Shown here: positions 1,869 through 25,684 of the stretch, one piece after another
Numbering within the stretch: the first letter of the stretch is position 1
How the letters are laid out: every line of letters begins with the position of its first letter
The notes under the pieces: generated by a model
The model's input: only the letters and a program-made list of their open reading frames with translations
What the model was told of the DNA's origin: nothing
Database searches by the model: none
IMG/VR virus record: IMGVR_UViG_3300048838_000164
Span: 1-26,026 of that record
DNA length: 26,026 bases
Reading direction: 5' to 3' (one strand)
Origin: a virus
Position numbers and translations under genes: made by a program

Positions 1869-3470
1869 CTAGTAATCGGTCTGGACTTCAATTAGTCCGT
1901 CATTTGGTCGCCAATTTTCCCGTTGTTGGGTAGCTGGATTCCCCACTGTTTTGCCGATCCGCACCGGTGTGGCGGCAATTGCGCCCGCGCCCGAGTCGAG
2001 ATAATCGTCTGGCTGTTCTTTCACTTCCGGGTTCCACTCGATCATCTGATCCCACATCGGTCCGTTCAGAACATCGACATGCGCCCACAAATAACCGGAA
2101 TCCATCGGCGCTTCGAAGGCGTCCAGGATTCGCTTGTTCTTGTTCGTTGTCTGGAAATTCTCACGGACGGCGCAGCCGGTTCCCTTCAGATGCTTTTTCA
2201 AGATGACAGGAACGTGACCGCCGGGGCCGTTGGTTTCGACTTCAACGCATGGAATCAGGTACTGAACAGCCAGCTCCCGGATCCGCTTGCATTGCTGATC
2301 GATGTCGCCTTCAAGGCCTTCGCATACATGCCAGTACAGATAGCCCTTCTCGTCGGTCAGCATCAGAGAAAATGCGCTGGCATCGCTGGTGATCTTGCCG
2401 AGTGCACAGTCCCAATACGCGATTGCTCCAACCAGGCGCACGTTGCCAAGGTATAGGCCTATCGTTTTGTTTGCTGCATGAATTCGCGGCTGTACGTCGT
2501 AGGGGATGATGCGCTCAGGATTCAATCGGATGTCTCCCACTGGTTTTGCGTGCAGCTGGTACTGGCTGTCCCATTCGTTGTGCGTGTTGCACTCGCGGCG
2601 GCGCAGGCCCATTTCCTCCGATGTGAAGCGCTCAGGCCAGGCGTTGCCCGCGTAGCAGTCGATTCGCACGCCGTTGTGGTCGGCCTTGAAGGTGATTTTG
2701 TTGTCCTTCCAGGTGTAATCCTTTCCGGCTTCCAGAACCTTGGTGTATTTGCCGATCCCGGCAAAGACAATCTCCGGCTTGAACTTCAAGGTGTAGGTCT
2801 GTTTGCCGCTCTTGAAGTCAATCTGGTGTTCGTCAGTGAACAGCGGAATCTTCAGCAGTTGCGCGCCCTTCTCGATCTGCTCATCGTAGATGCTGGCGTG
2901 ACTGTGCGGCGTGCCGATGAAAAGCTTTTTAGCGCCTGGCACTGCGATGTGGATCTGCTCGCTTAATCGATGGCGCAGCTTCTCGCGGTTTTCAGGCGTG
3001 CCGACATTCTTAGGCACTTCGACATCATCGTTTTGGATCTCGTCGGCGCGGCTGGATGTGATGTTGGACAGGATTCCAGCGGCTTGCATAGACGGGTTGC
3101 GCGGGTCGTTATGGCCCGGCACCCAAAAGAACGACACCTCGCCCGTTACAGAGTCTTCGGTGATGTAGTCGCGCGTCAGGGGGTGATTGATCAGAACGTG
3201 CCGAGTGTCGCGGCTGGTCTTGAATGCCGTGGTGTTCTGGTCGCCCTGGTGCAGTATTCGGTACGTTGGGTCGATGTAGTAGGCCCAAGCGTTGTACACA
3301 GCCAGCAGCGTCGATTTGCCTACGCCCCGGAACACCTCAAGCACAGCCAAGCGCCCGCGCGTTTCCAGAAAATTGCATATGCCGATGTGAATGTCGGGGA
3401 CGGTCCAGCCCTGTCGCGCCGCCCATAGCAAGAAGAACGCGACAAAGCCGACCCTGTCATTTTGCGCCAT
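1869..3470 (-). CDS. terL: Terminase large subunit (T7 gp19-like packaging ATPase/nuclease)
   Basis: This is the DNA-packaging motor and genome-cutting nuclease, 533 aa. The ATPase domain has a Walker A at residues 47-54 (FRGVGKST), a Walker B at about 144-151 (EIQNDDVE, preceded by SSRAD as in T7 gp19) and a coupling motif at 184-188 (FIGTP). The RNase H-like nuclease domain has candidate metal ligands D353 (YWDCALG), E410/E412 (VEVETNG) and D492 (YLDSGAGA). Length and motif spacing fit the T7 gp19 family, whose members often make genomes with direct terminal repeats. Residues about 214-277 form an extra beta-rich stretch (KDYTWKDNKITFK) between the two domains. ATG at 3470 overlaps the end of the small-subunit gene by 14 nt. 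SD-like AGAAG lies upstream. Confidence 0.96.
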   Translation of the reverse strand: MAQNDRVGFVAFFLLWAARQGWTVPDIHIGICNFLETRGRLAVLEVFRGVGKSTLLAVYNAWAYYIDPTYRILHQGDQNTTAFKTSRDTRHVLINHPLTRDYITEDSVTGEVSFFWVPGHNDPRNPSMQAAGILSNITSSRADEIQNDDVEVPKNVGTPENREKLRHRLSEQIHIAVPGAKKLFIGTPHSHASIYDEQIEKGAQLLKIPLFTDEHQIDFKSGKQTYTLKFKPEIVFAGIGKYTKVLEAGKDYTWKDNKITFKADHNGVRIDCYAGNAWPERFTSEEMGLRRRECNTHNEWDSQYQLHAKPVGDIRLNPERIIPYDVQPRIHAANKTIGLYLGNVRLVGAIAYWDCALGKITSDASAFSLMLTDEKGYLYWHVCEGLEGDIDQQCKRIRELAVQYLIPCVEVETNGPGGHVPVILKKHLKGTGCAVRENFQTTNKNKRILDAFEAPMDSGYLWAHVDVLNGPMWDQMIEWNPEVKEQPDDYLDSGAGAIAATPVRIGKTVGNPATQQRENWRPNDGLIEVQTDY

Positions 3471-3807
3471 TCGCGAAACGCTTCTGGAATTTCACCAGCT
3501 GGGCACGGCCTCGCTTCTCGGCATCCTTGATCAGCTTATCGAGCTGATCATCGTCGTCGTTGCTGGCTCCCAGTATCCCGGAAATGTGCGATTCTGGCCG
3601 CACCTGCATGGTGATGACCTTGTTCAGCAGTGTGGCCGTGGCGGCGGCGTCCTTCTTGCACCAATACCGGTTGCCGCGCTCTTCCTGCGTCATCTCGCTT
3701 GGCTTCATCCCGGCACCAGGCCAATCATCCGGATCAGCCTCCGCGATGAACGCATCCGCAAGCCGCTCGCTTAAATCTTTCAGCTTCTGGATCTGGTCTT
3801 CTCTCAT
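3457..3807 (-). CDS. terS: Putative terminase small subunit
   Basis: This 116-aa protein is encoded directly before and overlapping terL, so DNA recognition for packaging is its likely job. ATG at 3807 overlaps the stop of the upstream ejection-protein gene as ATGA. An open frame 12 codons longer would reach into that gene and is less likely. The N-terminus (MREDQIQKLKDLSERLADAFIA) is helical. A middle NRYWCKKDAAATATLL segment is followed by an acidic Asp run (NDDDDQLDKLI) and a basic C-terminal tail (EKRGRAQLVKFQKRF). No textbook helix-turn-helix is obvious, so the assignment rests on position, size and charge distribution. Confidence 0.65.
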   Translation of the reverse strand: MREDQIQKLKDLSERLADAFIAEADPDDWPGAGMKPSEMTQEERGNRYWCKKDAAATATLLNKVITMQVRPESHISGILGASNDDDDQLDKLIKDAEKRGRAQLVKFQKRFANGAK

Positions 3808-21442: not shown

Positions 21443-21811
21443 CTATTGCACGGGCTGAATGGTCACGTTCACGGTGATGACTACGCCGCGCAGTGATCCT
21501 GGTGCAGCCGGTTGCGCGTCGATTGTTGTGGTAATTGCAGGCGACCATGCTCCCTGCCTGCCTGATTCAACCGTCGCAATGCGGGCGCTATACGTGCCTG
21601 CACTCAGCCCTATGACTGTGTGCGTTGTGCCTGTTGGGTCTGCTGTCGCCACGATCACGCCAGCCTTGGACACCTCGAGCACATAGGATCGAATGCCAGT
21701 GATGGCGCTGCCGTCCTCGCGGGTTGTCGCGTGCTCCCATGTGTATGCAATGTCGTCCGCCTGTGCCAGTGATGCCAGTGCGATCAATGCCGCAGCTATC
21801 AGTCGTTTCAT
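21443..21811 (-). CDS. Secreted fibronectin type III-like protein
   Basis: This 122-aa protein has a classical Sec signal peptide (MKRLIAAALIALASLAQA, cleavage after AQA). It is followed by one fibronectin-III-like beta-sandwich with the pattern YTWEHATTREDGSAI...YVLEV...TVIGLSAGTYSARIATVES. The REDG block and SAGTYxARIATV strand are common in small phage FN3 proteins. It is probably exported to the periplasm or cell surface, or incorporated in the virion after processing. ATG at 21811 overlaps the previous stop as ATGA. A signal peptide on a late phage gene next to the portal is unusual. Confidence 0.8.
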   Translation of the reverse strand: MKRLIAAALIALASLAQADDIAYTWEHATTREDGSAITGIRSYVLEVSKAGVIVATADPTGTTHTVIGLSAGTYSARIATVESGRQGAWSPAITTTIDAQPAAPGSLRGVVITVNVTIQPVQ

Positions 21812-22710
21812 TTCTCATGCTCCCGGTCGAGTAGCTCTTTGATGCGGTCGTTGTTATTGCGCAGCAGTTGCGCCAGATCTTCCGGGCTCATGTCCGGGTT
21901 GCTGATTGCTGTCTGGTAGTCGTCCAGAGTGATGCCAAGCTGGATCAGACCGCGCATCAGAAAAACAGCGGCTTGTGCGTCGTTCATAAGGCTTGCTCCA
22001 CTTGTGCCAGTACTTTGTCGATACATTGCAGCCGCGTGTCGTGCCAGTGCAATAAGCGCGTCCCGAAACTCGGCGGGCGTTGCGTTCGCTTCGCGTTTGC
22101 CGAGTGTCGGCTTGTTTGCCGCCTTGCCGCGCTGGTCGTGGAATCCAATCTGATGCGTTCCGTTCGGGCGATCCCATCGCAGTTGCAGCGGTGGTTCTTT
22201 CCCGCAGTAGTACAGCCACGTTGCTTTCGCCGCGCGGTGCCCGTATGCGCTCTGCCAAACCTCGCACACCCAGCCGCCATCGATGCACCGCTGCCAGCCA
22301 ATACCGGAAGGCGCGGCCAGCCCATGCGCCGCCCATGCGCGGGTTTTCGCCGGGTGTTCCAGCACCCAGCCGAAGCGGCGCACAGATTCAAGCGCACTAG
22401 CAAAACAACCGCCGTCGTTCCCCGGCCTGTTGTGTTCGCCTCCCCACCGCTTGTAATTGATTGGCGCAAACGCACCCCACAACTGGCACGGCGGGTGCGC
22501 AACAACCGGGTGCGGGCCTGCATAGGTGCGTGCATCGCGGGCTTCGTCCCACGGGTCAACGCCTGGCACGCCCACATAGCAGCCCTTCGGTTCCACATAC
22601 AGGGCCGCCACCGTCCGGCACTCCACCGGGCGCATAACACTTCGGTCAACCGGACTGCCCGCGGCGGTCCGGTCTGTGGCTTCGTCTTGCATTTGTAGCG
22701 CCGTGGTCAT
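21808..22710 (-). CDS. Phage protein with DNA-cytosine-methyltransferase-like motifs
   Basis: This 300-aa protein shows a recognisable phage family: AALYVEPKGCYVGVPGVDPW, DARTYAGPHPVVAHPPCQLW, GWVLEHPAKTRAW, then WVCEVWQSAYGHRAAKATWL. HPPC (residues 72-75) and LEHP (117-120) resemble the PC and EN catalytic motifs of C5-methyltransferases. The S-adenosylmethionine motif is not clear, so activity is uncertain. ATG at 22710 has GAGG 7-8 nt upstream, but residues 1-26 and that ribosome-binding site lie inside an attC-like site. The native start may have been ATG at 22635 (MRPVECRT). Residues 242-300 look like a separable helical add-on with its own GGAG-ATG at 21987. Confidence 0.75.
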   Translation of the reverse strand: MTTALQMQDEATDRTAAGSPVDRSVMRPVECRTVAALYVEPKGCYVGVPGVDPWDEARDARTYAGPHPVVAHPPCQLWGAFAPINYKRWGGEHNRPGNDGGCFASALESVRRFGWVLEHPAKTRAWAAHGLAAPSGIGWQRCIDGGWVCEVWQSAYGHRAAKATWLYYCGKEPPLQLRWDRPNGTHQIGFHDQRGKAANKPTLGKREANATPAEFRDALIALARHAAAMYRQSTGTSGASLMNDAQAAVFLMRGLIQLGITLDDYQTAISNPDMSPEDLAQLLRNNNDRIKELLDREHEK

Positions 22711-22732
22711 CCGGTTACCTCAAACGTTAGCC
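22632..22732 (+). other. attC-like recombination site 1 (integron type)
   Basis: In plus orientation, R'' is GCATAAC (22632-22638) and R' is GTTAGCC (22726-22732). The L'' arm (22644-22666) and L' arm (22699-22719) pair over 21 positions with 19 matches once two unpaired bases on the L'' arm are allowed, one of them the C of TCAAC. Total length is 101 bp. Extra bases confined to L'' give attC its polarity and make the minus strand the recombinogenic one. R'' and R' here do not match each other well, which is expected when a cassette has been inserted at G^TT. Confidence 0.83.
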
Positions 22733-22975
22733 GTCGCTGTCATTGCCGACAAGGCTTGCGATGTATTTGGAAGCGAGGCGGTGCCCTTCATCGCAACCGG
22801 CGTAATAGGCATCAGCTTGAGGCGTTCCCATTGCGTATTGCTTTTTGCCGAAGGTTTGATTTGTTTCGCGCAGCCGGTACTTCAGAATTTCGAGCACACC
22901 GTGGCGGTACTCATCACTGCGCGGATCGCGAGGTATCGCAAACGCGGAATCGAAAATTTCTTGAGCCTTGCTCAT
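22727..22975 (-). CDS. Cassette-borne small phage-like protein
   Basis: This 82-aa protein is the only good gene inside the attC-bounded cassette. It starts at ATG 22975 with AGGAG 6 nt upstream. The sequence has EYRHGVLEILKYRLRE, then a Gly-Thr-x-x-Ala-Asp-Ala-Tyr-Tyr-Ala-Gly-x-Asp-Glu-Gly-His-Arg block (residues 50-66), a pattern seen in small phage and prophage proteins of unknown role. Its stop TAA is the reverse complement of the first three bases of the cassette (TTA of TTAGCC). It reads against normal cassette polarity, but with phage late transcription. Function is unknown. Confidence 0.75.
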   Translation of the reverse strand: MSKAQEIFDSAFAIPRDPRSDEYRHGVLEILKYRLRETNQTFGKKQYAMGTPQADAYYAGCDEGHRLASKYIASLVGNDSDG

Positions 22976-23088
22976 CTGGCGCTCCTGCTATGTCGTCGTT
23001 CGACGGCTAACTATGTGCTCAAGCGGACTGCCCGGACGGGCTTCCGCTGTTCTGATCTGTGGTCGGCGGGCAGCCGCTTAGCACGGCG
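22727..23088 (+). mobile_element. Integron-type gene cassette (362 bp) in a phage genome
   Basis: This is the segment between the two predicted G^TT crossover points. On circularisation, the last G (23088) would join TTAGCC (22727) to make R' GTTAGCC. That is an exact 7/7 complement of the cassette's own R'' GGCTAAC (23005-23011). Deleting the segment restores GCATAAC ... GTTATGA, 6/7 complementary. This double agreement is the signature of a cassette inserted into an older attC. There is no integron integrase in the window, so insertion would have used a host IntI. Confidence 0.83.
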
Positions 23089-23094
23089 TTATGA
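23005..23094 (+). other. attC-like recombination site 2 (integron type)
   Basis: In plus orientation, R'' is GGCTAAC (23005-23011) and R' is GTTATGA (23088-23094). The L'' arm (23015-23034) and L' arm (23067-23084) form a perfect 18-bp stem when C23020 (in CTCAAG) and A23027 are left unpaired. Two extrahelical bases six positions apart on L'' match canonical attC. Total length is 90 bp with a 32-nt variable loop, within the usual attC size range. R' ends 1 nt before the stop codon of the lipoprotein gene (23096-23098). Confidence 0.88.
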
Positions 23095-23095
23095 C

Positions 23096-23371
23096 TCACA
23101 GCAGGCATTCCCGCCGCGTGTCGGTTGCCTCGCATCCGTTGATGTCGGTCACCAGTGCGCGCCCGTCGATCAGCAAGGTGTTGGCGCGCAGCAACGCAGT
23201 CAGATACTTGTCGCCGTCCGTCTCGCTCAGTGCGCCGATGGCCTGCGCCTGCTCGATACGCTCGGCCAGCGCAACGATCTGATTTGATGCAAACGCCGCT
23301 GTGTTGTTGGGTTTGTCGATTGCTGTACATGCAGCCAGTGCGACGACTGCAACGGTGGCTAGATGTCTCAT
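23096..23371 (-). CDS. Lysis-block lipoprotein
   Basis: This 91-aa protein has a lipoprotein signal (MRHLATVAVVALAAC, lipobox LAAC with lipidated Cys at residue 15). The mature part is helical (SNQIVALAERIEQAQAIGAL, YLTALLRANTLLIDGRALV) with a Cys-containing tail (NGCEATDTRRECLL). Directly after the holin gene (ATGA overlap), it is in the place of an outer-membrane spanin, but its mature part is longer and more helical than Rz1. It could be another envelope protein. Its stop codon almost touches the attC site 2 boundary. Confidence 0.75.
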   Translation of the reverse strand: MRHLATVAVVALAACTAIDKPNNTAAFASNQIVALAERIEQAQAIGALSETDGDKYLTALLRANTLLIDGRALVTDINGCEATDTRRECLL

Positions 23372-23554: not shown

Positions 23555-23890
23555 TCACTTGCTGCCGTTGTGTTCGAATGAGTAGTGATTCCCGTCACCA
23601 AATCGACCGCCCCAGGTGCCGCCGATTGATTCCCAGAACTCGCCAAGCGGCCTGTGTGCTTCGGTCGATGGTAGATACTTGCCGTTTTTGAACAGGTTGA
23701 AGTCGACAGCCAGGCGCAGCTTATGGGTCGATCTTGGCTCGCCGTAGCCTTTGGATTCTCCCAGCGATCCGAACACGCGCGGATCCCGGTATGCGTCGCC
23801 AAAGGTAAGCTCGTAGCCGTTCTGGTAGGCGTACTGGATCAGAGAAGCAATGGAGCGGGTGAACTGTCGTTGCTTGGCGGACAGGCTCAT
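23555..23890 (-). CDS. Endolysin, M15-type L-Ala-D-Glu/D-Ala peptidase
   Basis: This 111-aa zinc peptidase should cleave peptide cross-links or stems in peptidoglycan. Motifs are FGDAYRDP (30-37), STHKLRLAVDF (54-64, zinc ligands H56 and D63) and GNHYSFEH (101-107, third ligand H102), with GEFWESIGGTWGGRF between them. This order is characteristic of M15C phage endolysins. ATG at 23890 overlaps the upstream stop as TGATG and has AAGGTGA 6 nt before it. A GTG one codon earlier is less likely. No signal peptide is present, so release would depend on the holin. Confidence 0.92.
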   Translation of the reverse strand: MSLSAKQRQFTRSIASLIQYAYQNGYELTFGDAYRDPRVFGSLGESKGYGEPRSTHKLRLAVDFNLFKNGKYLPSTEAHRPLGEFWESIGGTWGGRFGDGNHYSFEHNGSK

Positions 23891-24258: not shown

Positions 24259-24561
24259 TCAGCTCGCAGCACTCCCAATCTTCAGTTCAATCGGCAGCTG
24301 CCCGATCTTCTTGCCGGTCTGCTGCATCCAGAGCCGAATGATCGGCAATGCGTCTTCGGTTTTGAGCGAGTACCGGTGCAGCTTCCAGCCCTTGATCCGG
24401 TTCTTCGGTATTCTGGTGGCGGCCTCCATGTCGTCGAAGGTCATGCCTGATCGCTGCACGTCCATGATAACCTCAAACCAGTCGAATCGATACCCGCTTT
24501 GCAGTCGTTTTGCTTTTGCGATTGTGTCCAGGATTTCAAGATTGGTGATAGCTAGTGTCAT
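24259..24561 (-). CDS. Helix-turn-helix-like DNA-binding protein
   Basis: This protein is 100 aa from ATG at 24561 (MTLAITNLEILDTIAK), which has a GTGAGG 8-9 nt upstream. ATG at 24582 would add 7 residues and overlap the previous stop as ATGA, and both remain possible. Residues about 41-65 (TFDDMEAATRIPKNRIKGWK) resemble a helix-turn-helix with helix 3 RIKGWKLHRYSL, followed by helices (TEDALPIIRLWMQQTG). It is probably a phage transcription regulator, lying just before an 84-nt gap that separates the replication-type and lysis blocks. The gap (24175-24258) contains a CG-alternating run but no clear promoter. Confidence 0.6.
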   Translation of the reverse strand: MTLAITNLEILDTIAKAKRLQSGYRFDWFEVIMDVQRSGMTFDDMEAATRIPKNRIKGWKLHRYSLKTEDALPIIRLWMQQTGKKIGQLPIELKIGSAAS

Positions 24562-24578
24562 GTGTATAACCTCACGTT

Positions 24579-24662
24579 TCATGCTGCTGCCTGCTTGCCT
24601 GGTTTGCGTCGCCCGTGTTTGATGCCGCAGTCATAACAGATTGCTGCCGGATATTTGCTCAT
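24579..24662 (-). CDS. 27-residue Cys-x-x-Cys mini-protein
   Basis: This very short frame is coupled at both ends by ATGA overlaps (start at 24662 in the stop of the 57-aa gene, stop at 24581-24579 in the next start). The sequence MSKYPAAICYDCGIKHGRRK continues for only 7 more residues. Its CYDCGxKHGRR start looks like the first zinc knuckle of a longer small phage zinc-ribbon protein, so this may be a truncated relic or a genuine mini-protein. Its expression is plausible from the tight coupling. Confidence 0.5.
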   Translation of the reverse strand: MSKYPAAICYDCGIKHGRRKPGKQAAA

Positions 24663-24836: not shown

Positions 24837-25178
24837 TCATACCGTTGTACGGTGCTCACAAAACCCGCTCCTTGTATGCCAAGCCTGGGTATCCTCAGCA
24901 CACAGCTGACACGGATGCGAGAGGATCGCCGCGATGCGCTGCAGGTCGTATCCGGCAGTGTCGTTGGCCAGCGTTCGCCTGCCCTCATCCGTGCGCTTGT
25001 ACTCGGCTTGCAGGAACTCATACCAGTCCCGGCCTTGGCTTTGCCCATGACTGAAAAGCGTGTGCTCGTATCGCATGACTGCATCGAGCTGATCGCGTAG
25101 CAGACGCATCAACGCAGGCTTTGCCAGGCCCATGTCGAAAACGGTTTCGCATCGTTTCAGGAATTCTTCACGGGTCAT
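24837..25178 (-). CDS. Hypothetical protein with C-terminal Cys/His cluster
   Basis: This 113-aa protein has a helical N-terminal part (MTREEFLKRCETVFDMG, LMRLLRDQLDAVMRY). A C-terminal cluster (C90, C93, H101, C107, H109 in HPCQLCAEDTQAWHTRSGFC) could bind zinc. ATG at 25178 overlaps the rusA stop as ATGA, so it is co-translated with the resolvase and may act on DNA or in a replication complex. No family was recognised. Confidence 0.7.
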   Translation of the reverse strand: MTREEFLKRCETVFDMGLAKPALMRLLRDQLDAVMRYEHTLFSHGQSQGRDWYEFLQAEYKRTDEGRRTLANDTAGYDLQRIAAILSHPCQLCAEDTQAWHTRSGFCEHRTTV

Positions 25179-25684
25179 GCCGCCATCTCCTGCTGACCTG
25201 GGATGATGAGTTGATCCTTGCGCGTGATCTGGCAGTTGCTGACCGACACGGGCGTGATCTTGATCCGGACGCCTGGACGCTCGCCGTAGCGCTTGAACGC
25301 ATCGACGTGAACGACCTGGGCATCATCGAGCCAGCAGATACCGTTGAGCGCGTCCTTGACGGACTTCAGCACGTTGTCGACGTCAGGCTTGGTCGTGTGC
25401 GCGATGAAGCCTTCGAGCGCGGCCTGTCGCTTCCAGTTCGGCCAGCCTGCCGGGATCGAGAACAGGAGCGCGACTTCGAGCACCACCGGCGCCGTGATGA
25501 CCGGATACTTGCCGTGGTGCATGACGACGCGGGCTTGATCTGCAATCGTCTGCTCGTAGCTGACGGTTTGCTTCGGCGTGTAAGACTGCACGAACGATCG
25601 GCCTGATTTTGTGGTGATCTGCCGATGACGCGCCCTCGCCTTCGCTACCGGCTCGCCTGGCACAATGAATTGAATTTCGTTCAC
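25175..25684 (-). CDS. rusA: RusA-family Holliday-junction resolvase
   Basis: This 169-aa endonuclease cuts branched DNA formed during phage recombination and replication or before packaging. The N-terminus has FIVPGEPVAKARARH, the usual strand and Lys/Arg substrate-binding segment. The catalytic core KPDVDNVLKSVKDALNGICW followed by LDDAQV holds the conserved acidic residues (D101, D103, D111, D120/D121). The C-terminus continues for about 25 residues past the core. The GTG start at 25684 overlaps the upstream stop as GTGA and has a strong AGGAG 6 nt before it. Confidence 0.94.
   Translation of the reverse strand: MNEIQFIVPGEPVAKARARHRQITTKSGRSFVQSYTPKQTVSYEQTIADQARVVMHHGKYPVITAPVVLEVALLFSIPAGWPNWKRQAALEGFIAHTTKPDVDNVLKSVKDALNGICWLDDAQVVHVDAFKRYGERPGVRIKITPVSVSNCQITRKDQLIIPGQQEMAA

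Follow-up and report, generated by a model that had tools for sequence, protein, structure and literature searches.

The attC region of the window

The window, i.e. the whole stretch of 26,026 nt analysed here, is an IMG/VR virus record and a partial contig. Its best-supported genes make up a late gene set like that of podoviruses, encoded on the minus strand: terminase (phrog_38), virion proteins, tail (phrog_376), major head (phrog_3437) and portal/head-tail adaptor (phrog_332). Structural and packaging genes of a phage thus stand on the same contig, and codon scoring places all called coding bases of the window on the minus strand. Between the late block and the right-hand genes, which include a region similar to M15-type endolysins, lie two attC sites, the recombination sites of integron gene cassettes (Table 1). 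Upstream of the lysis region we also observed a transcriptional-repressor-like gene (phrog_16553) and a RusA endonuclease gene (PF05866), at 24259-24582 and 25175-25684.

Table 1. Features of the attC region, in window coordinates (CM, covariance model)
Feature	Position	Strand	Details and evidence
phrog_12600 gene, 300-aa ORF	21808..22710	-	phrog_12600, E 5e-68
attC site 1	22632..22732	+	R'' 22632-22638 GCATAAC; R' 22726-22732 GTTAGCC; CM and detector
attC site 1 crossover	between G22726 and T22727	+	extrahelical C22647 and A22654
Complete 362-bp gene cassette (TTAGCC ... attC2 ... G)	22727..23088	+	R-box complementarity; copies in L162 and L163
Cassette gene, 82 aa	22727..22975	-	antisense to attC; homologues; third-position mismatches
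attC site 2 (the cassette's own)	23005..23094	+	R'' 23005-23011 GGCTAAC; R' 23088-23094 GTTATGA; CM, detector and fold
attC site 2 crossover	between G23088 and T23089	+	extrahelical C23020 and A23027
Right flank after attC site 2	23089..23302		99.5-100% identical in L162; junction of the extra cassette of L162

A covariance model made from 20 short attC sites of other loci and contigs, run with default filters, found exactly two attC sites in the window, both on the plus strand: site 1 with 44.0 bits (E = 1e-8) and site 2 with 39.6 bits (E = 1.2e-7). No further match at E ≤ 1 was present in the rest of the 26 kb. A preliminary description, made from the letters alone, had named two significant plus-strand matches at about these positions as what would support it. 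The helices of the model covary (61 double-change cells versus 20.6 in shuffles), and the score of its alignment collapses when the arms are slid. Running the same model with the filters off gave wrong bounds for both sites (26.2 and 15.6 bits), and the default filters were used instead. A custom detector following the plan AAC ... two-bulge ... GTT scored 25.5 for site 1 and 27.5 for site 2, while the best score among 20 dinucleotide-shuffled windows was 22.5; at a threshold of 24 the detector gave no matches across 832 kb of shuffled viral DNA. The fold of site 2 beats all 200 of 200 shuffles (z = -3.19). No family was matched in an Rfam scan of the window at the gathering threshold.

Both sites possess R'' and R' boxes with AAC/GTT cores, paired L boxes and extrahelical bases on a single arm; the sequence, the detector and the covariance model agree on this architecture, which had been described earlier. 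The L arms of site 1 read GGT[C]AACCGG[A]cTG versus GGT-AACCGG-aTG. In site 2, removal of C23020 and A23027 leaves GTGCT+AAGCGG+CTGCCCG, the perfect 18-bp stem that had been claimed for it. With two attC sites 373 bp apart (start to start) and no match to the integron integrase (IntI) model TIGR02249 in the window, the locus has the composition of an integron cassette array without its own integrase (CALIN). It contains one complete cassette and the attC end of a neighbour.

Site 1 is a part of this left-hand cassette, the one with the phrog_12600 gene. The ATG and the first ∼25 codons of that gene lie inside the site, the attC-encoded N-terminus of the protein is kept in cassette-borne homologues, and the DNA homology between the window and viral contig L102 crosses site 1 and ends at its R' end. 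The phrog_12600 gene is a recurrent cassette gene. A left boundary of its cassette (GTTATGC start) was not found left of the gene in the window, where the gene may be fixed in the operon with no left cassette boundary recognisable. In non-cassette copies of phrog_12600 (e.g. L082) the homology is lost just before attC.

The complete cassette and its gene

The R'' box of site 2, GGCTAAC, is the exact complement of the R' box of site 1, GTTAGCC, which is what a circular intermediate would give; we verified in this way the earlier statement that R'' complements the G|TTAGCC formed on circularisation. The junction of the circle is ...GCACGGCG|TTAGCCGTC....

The 82-aa gene of the cassette is antisense to attC. 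It stops at a TAA formed by the complementary strand of the R-box TTA (22727-22729), and a Shine-Dalgarno-like AGGAG precedes its ATG. Homologues of the protein are present in five other viral contigs and five bacterial genomes, and in this family the fraction of mismatches that fall at third codon positions is 0.67-0.69 in the antisense frame versus 0.21-0.27 on the other strand. The bacterial homologues (L167, L168, L169, L170 and L171) have 39-52% identity and come from Pseudomonas, Massilia, Caballeronia and Methylococcus genomes. Family and structure searches with the 82-aa protein gave no match in Pfam, PHROG, NCBIfam or PDB, and a tblastn search against phage records found none. In BLAST searches with the cassette region, plasmids gave no match, and the sole match to phage records was ∼23555-23876 (endolysin).

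Alleles that differ by one cassette

A second viral contig, IMGVR_UViG_3300048592_000535 (L162), contains window positions 22529-23299 at 99-100% identity along with one extra cassette of 452 bp, inserted exactly at the G^TT point of attC site 2. Its identical copy of site 1 likewise scores 44.0 bits in the covariance model search. When the 452-bp cassette is removed in silico between the two G^TT points, L162 aligns to the window continuously over 772 columns, with 99.35% identity and both flanks covered; it is the only other contig found to carry the right flank. The near-identical copy of the 22727-23088 cassette in L162 has a different right neighbour, and in another viral contig, L163, an 87.5% homologous cassette, with homology starting exactly at 22727, has different neighbours too. 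At the level of nucleotide sequence, the alignment of these two phage contigs thus shows that they differ by a whole cassette that was gained or lost at G^TT. Comparison of related phages for such clean edges had been proposed beforehand, and the L162 allele, together with the covariance-model matches and the lack of an IntI match above the cut-off, bears out the initial reading, in which two attC sites within a phage operon enclose one cassette and no integrase is visible.

The homology between the window and L162 stops inside genes at both edges (22529 and about 23300). In L162 the genes on either side of the shared segment (2010-3474) look truncated; one is a replication-protein-like N-terminus, the other an interrupted phrog_12600 gene. 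The outer junctions of L162 may come from a chimeric assembly or from an illegitimate recombinant or insertion; the cassette boundary is unaffected.

Arrays of attC sites in other viral contigs

Searches started from the 82-aa gene and its phrog_12600 neighbour uncovered viral contigs that each have an array of 2 to 11 attC sites. Four contigs with 5-11 attC sites also hold phage structural or packaging genes: G003 (major head, portal, tape measure and tail genes), G012 (terminase, portal, head and tape measure), G008 (terminase, along with helicases) and G010 (portal). The pattern of one narrow attC subtype matched 111 IMG/VR stretches, and large proteins encoded there have matches among phage families for terminase, tail, recombination and replication functions. 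Most of the loci were collected with this one subtype pattern, and the array contigs come from metagenomes or are incomplete. Arrays of up to 11 sites were observed, among others, in viral contigs L097, L102, L112, L131, L163, L164, L222, L231, L252 and L259.

In 162 of 225 pairs from the viral arrays, the R' box of one site matches the R'' box of the next at each of the four variable positions. Restricted to informative pairs, this chain rule holds in 113 out of 167, while a site's own two boxes match in 8 of the 167. Such a chain of R boxes is the signature of circular cassettes that cross over at R'.

The TIGR02249 search gave no match above the cut-off in 16 related contigs, which are partial; as in the window, the intI gene of a complete integron was not seen. 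Weak matches below the cut-off, in three of the 16 contigs (G002 with 41.3 bits, G004 and G009), are generic tyrosine-recombinase-like stretches.

Orientation of cassette genes relative to attC

In ordinary cassettes the gene typically, though not absolutely, is co-oriented with the attC top strand and is followed by attC at its 3′ end. We calibrated this convention on the annotated class 1 aadA1 array of an E. coli plasmid. The preliminary description had the locus as an integron cassette, and this is right with regard to the attC sites and R boxes; the ordinary bacterial layout is not what we found, the 82-aa gene being antisense to attC.

The same arrangement prevails in the other viral arrays. 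Among 131 cassettes oriented confidently by the codon model, 125 are reversed and six are canonical (59 versus 2 at the level of loci), cassettes in these counts being not fully independent. Divergence at third codon positions, a measure free of codon bias, gave 17 votes for the reversed frame versus one when substitutions between homologous cassettes were compared. In ten whole contigs and in the window, attC and the called gene bases within the array occupy opposite strands; the lone exception is 212 bp in G011, and G014 has none. Reversed genes are preceded by a Shine-Dalgarno-like motif in 105 of 128 cases (about 40 in shuffles). Their starts lie at a median of 27 nt beyond their attC, with 24 starts located within attC, and the R-box TTA is read as the stop TAA in 52 of 127, when about one-third of boundary-reaching ORFs would be expected to do so by chance of frame.

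As a control we took 63 cassettes of bacterial arrays, fetched near intI or by the same covariance model and processed by the same pipeline. This control is small: 18-21 cassettes were oriented confidently, all of them canonical and none reversed. By longest ORF the bacterial cassettes were canonical in 49 cases and reversed in one. Used alone on viral cassettes, the longest-ORF measure orients weakly (72 versus 46) because GC-rich DNA has long antisense ORFs; this ambiguous measure was set aside in favour of the codon model and third-position divergence.

The codon model and the divergence data together show, for the predicted genes of the viral arrays, an orientation antisense to attC, with attC as a 5′ leader and the R-box TTA often supplying the stop. 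We considered bacterial contamination of IMG/VR as a source of the reversed arrays and rejected it, as confidently oriented control cassettes are never reversed and the sole viral locus with a canonical array of several confident cassettes, which is also the main canonical locus (L272), is an isolate-genome record. This long canonical array (L272/L278, IMGVR_UViG_2834908352_000001) is probably a prophage call extending into a host integron. No report of a systematic inversion of cassette genes was found in the literature searched, a body that left most subscription-journal papers and preprints outside.

Probable origin and exchange of the viral cassettes

We think it probable that the window contains a segment of an integron cassette array which is carried by a phage and has no integrase of its own (CALIN), and that its cassettes are dedicated to phages and are swapped by host IntI through the bottom strand of attC. 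For the sites of the window we infer host IntI as the recombinase. An integron integrase encoded by the host, or by a co-resident element, would fold and recombine the single-stranded attC bottom strand during phage replication, and cassettes would be cut out and passed between phages by that integrase. The inverted layout would make the cassette genes readable by the phage operon and the bottom strand the one with the mRNA sequence. If the operon is co-directional with replication, the recombinogenic bottom strand would be on the lagging-strand template. In Vibrio cholerae, bottom strands placed on the lagging-strand template were shown to raise cassette excision dramatically (PMC11023631). 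Since the bottom strand would be the mRNA-sequence strand and, where transcription follows the fork, the lagging-strand template, phages could have operon expression and easily folded sites at the same time. Insulation would be another benefit: inverted cassettes would be silent behind the host Pc promoter, and host cassettes would be silent in a phage operon. A broader proposal is that phages keep their own inverted cassette pool apart from the bacterial one, with host integrases as a trans-acting means of exchange among unrelated phages and with the layout silencing phage cassettes behind a host Pc and host cassettes in phage operons. In such a pool attC would contain the ribosome-binding site or stand ahead of it, the R-box TTA would provide the stop codon, and the recombinogenic strand would be the one with the mRNA sequence; we give this proposal about equal chances of being right and wrong.

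Another possibility, which we regard as unlikely, is that a phage recombinase other than IntI moves these attC-like sites, the system being merely integron-like. Because the contig is incomplete, the gene for a phage recombinase could be located beyond the window, and such a recombinase would be compatible with the absence of IntI matches over the cut-off from the array contigs, with the tyrosine-recombinase-like stretches of G002, G004 and G009 and with a gene layout that differs from that of bacterial cassettes. Most array contigs, the window included, are nevertheless devoid of any recombinase-like match. The sites also keep the details that IntI requires, namely AAC/GTT cores, two bulges 6 nt apart on one arm and the R' G^TT crossover, and attC sites of other virulent phages recombine with IntI1 on a par with a bacterial control site (PMC9892861).

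Slightly less likely still, in our judgement, is an ordinary bacterial cassette that was inserted once by host IntI and is now a fixed, non-mobile passenger. The attC architecture is indeed canonical bacterial, and Burkholderiales genomes contain related attC sites of the short kind (31 of 300). Yet in L162 and L163 the same cassette has other neighbours, there is an allele that differs by one cassette, and the homologues are in other phages, with bacterial relatives at only 39-52% identity. The orientation of the gene, unlike that of all confidently oriented bacterial control cassettes, is the one seen in nearly all viral arrays, which favours a cassette of the phage type over the single acquisition of a host cassette.

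That an assembly artefact joined a bacterial integron fragment to a phage contig through attC repeats is very improbable, in spite of the repeat nature of the arrays and of the edges of L162 homology inside genes, as the window cassette shares its strand and operon with the flanking genes, neither of the genes at the homology edges is broken in the window, reversed arrays turn up repeatedly in many contigs of many different samples, several of these contigs having structural genes, and the bacterial control has no reversed arrays that could be the source.

Relation to known systems

Integrons have been studied as a bacterial system of gene trading. Compared with sedentary chromosomal and class 1 integrons, the viral arrays have the same attC secondary structure, R-box chain, cassette size and tandem organisation, but no intI was found, the gene is inverted, the cargo is of the phage accessory kind, and attC makes a 5′ leader instead of a 3′ tail.

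Clusters of attC without an integrase have been reported in virulent phages and shown to be recombined by IntI1 (Qi et al. 2023, PMC9892861), so that the locus has precedents; the published cases are few, a survey of 10,705 genomes having found them in 21 phages. With 111 IMG/VR stretches hit by a narrow subtype alone, the rarity of cassettes in phage genomes assumed in the preliminary description does not extend to uncultured phages. The CALINs of Tetrasphaera phage TJE1, Polaribacter phage P12002L and Pseudoalteromonas phage H101/PH101 (PMC9892861) resemble the arrays described here in having attC sites and cassettes without intI and in carrying DNA methyltransferase genes. The IntI1 activity of attC was demonstrated experimentally in that study. 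Genes of TJE1 are on the attC strand, in the canonical way; in the window and in nearly all IMG/VR viral arrays examined they are reversed. The IMG/VR arrays further differ in reaching about 11 sites and in offering a natural allele pair that differs by one cassette. A departure from the usual integron orientation is known from the reverse-orientation integrons of Spirochaetota (PMC9668308); there the integrase is reported as reversed, while here the cassette gene is reversed relative to its own attC and no integrase was found.

The presence of attC in phages is, therefore, of an already known kind; the many uncultured phages with arrays, and the inversion of genes, look new. The inversion points to a distinct pool of exchangeable genes specific to phages. 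Should inverted arrays of methyltransferase and other accessory genes be widespread in uncultured phages, host IntI would link phages in a shared, site-specific gene market, and natural cassette exchange would have been underestimated. Gene inversion could serve as a simple diagnostic to tell phage-type cassettes from bacterial ones, and it offers a direct test of how strand exposure in replication controls cassette mobility.

The recognisable cargo of the viral cassettes includes N6/N4 and C5 DNA methyltransferases, RNA ligases, a queuine tRNA-ribosyltransferase and other phage accessory genes. DNA methyltransferases are its commonest kind, and the cargo is consistent with a role in counter-defence.
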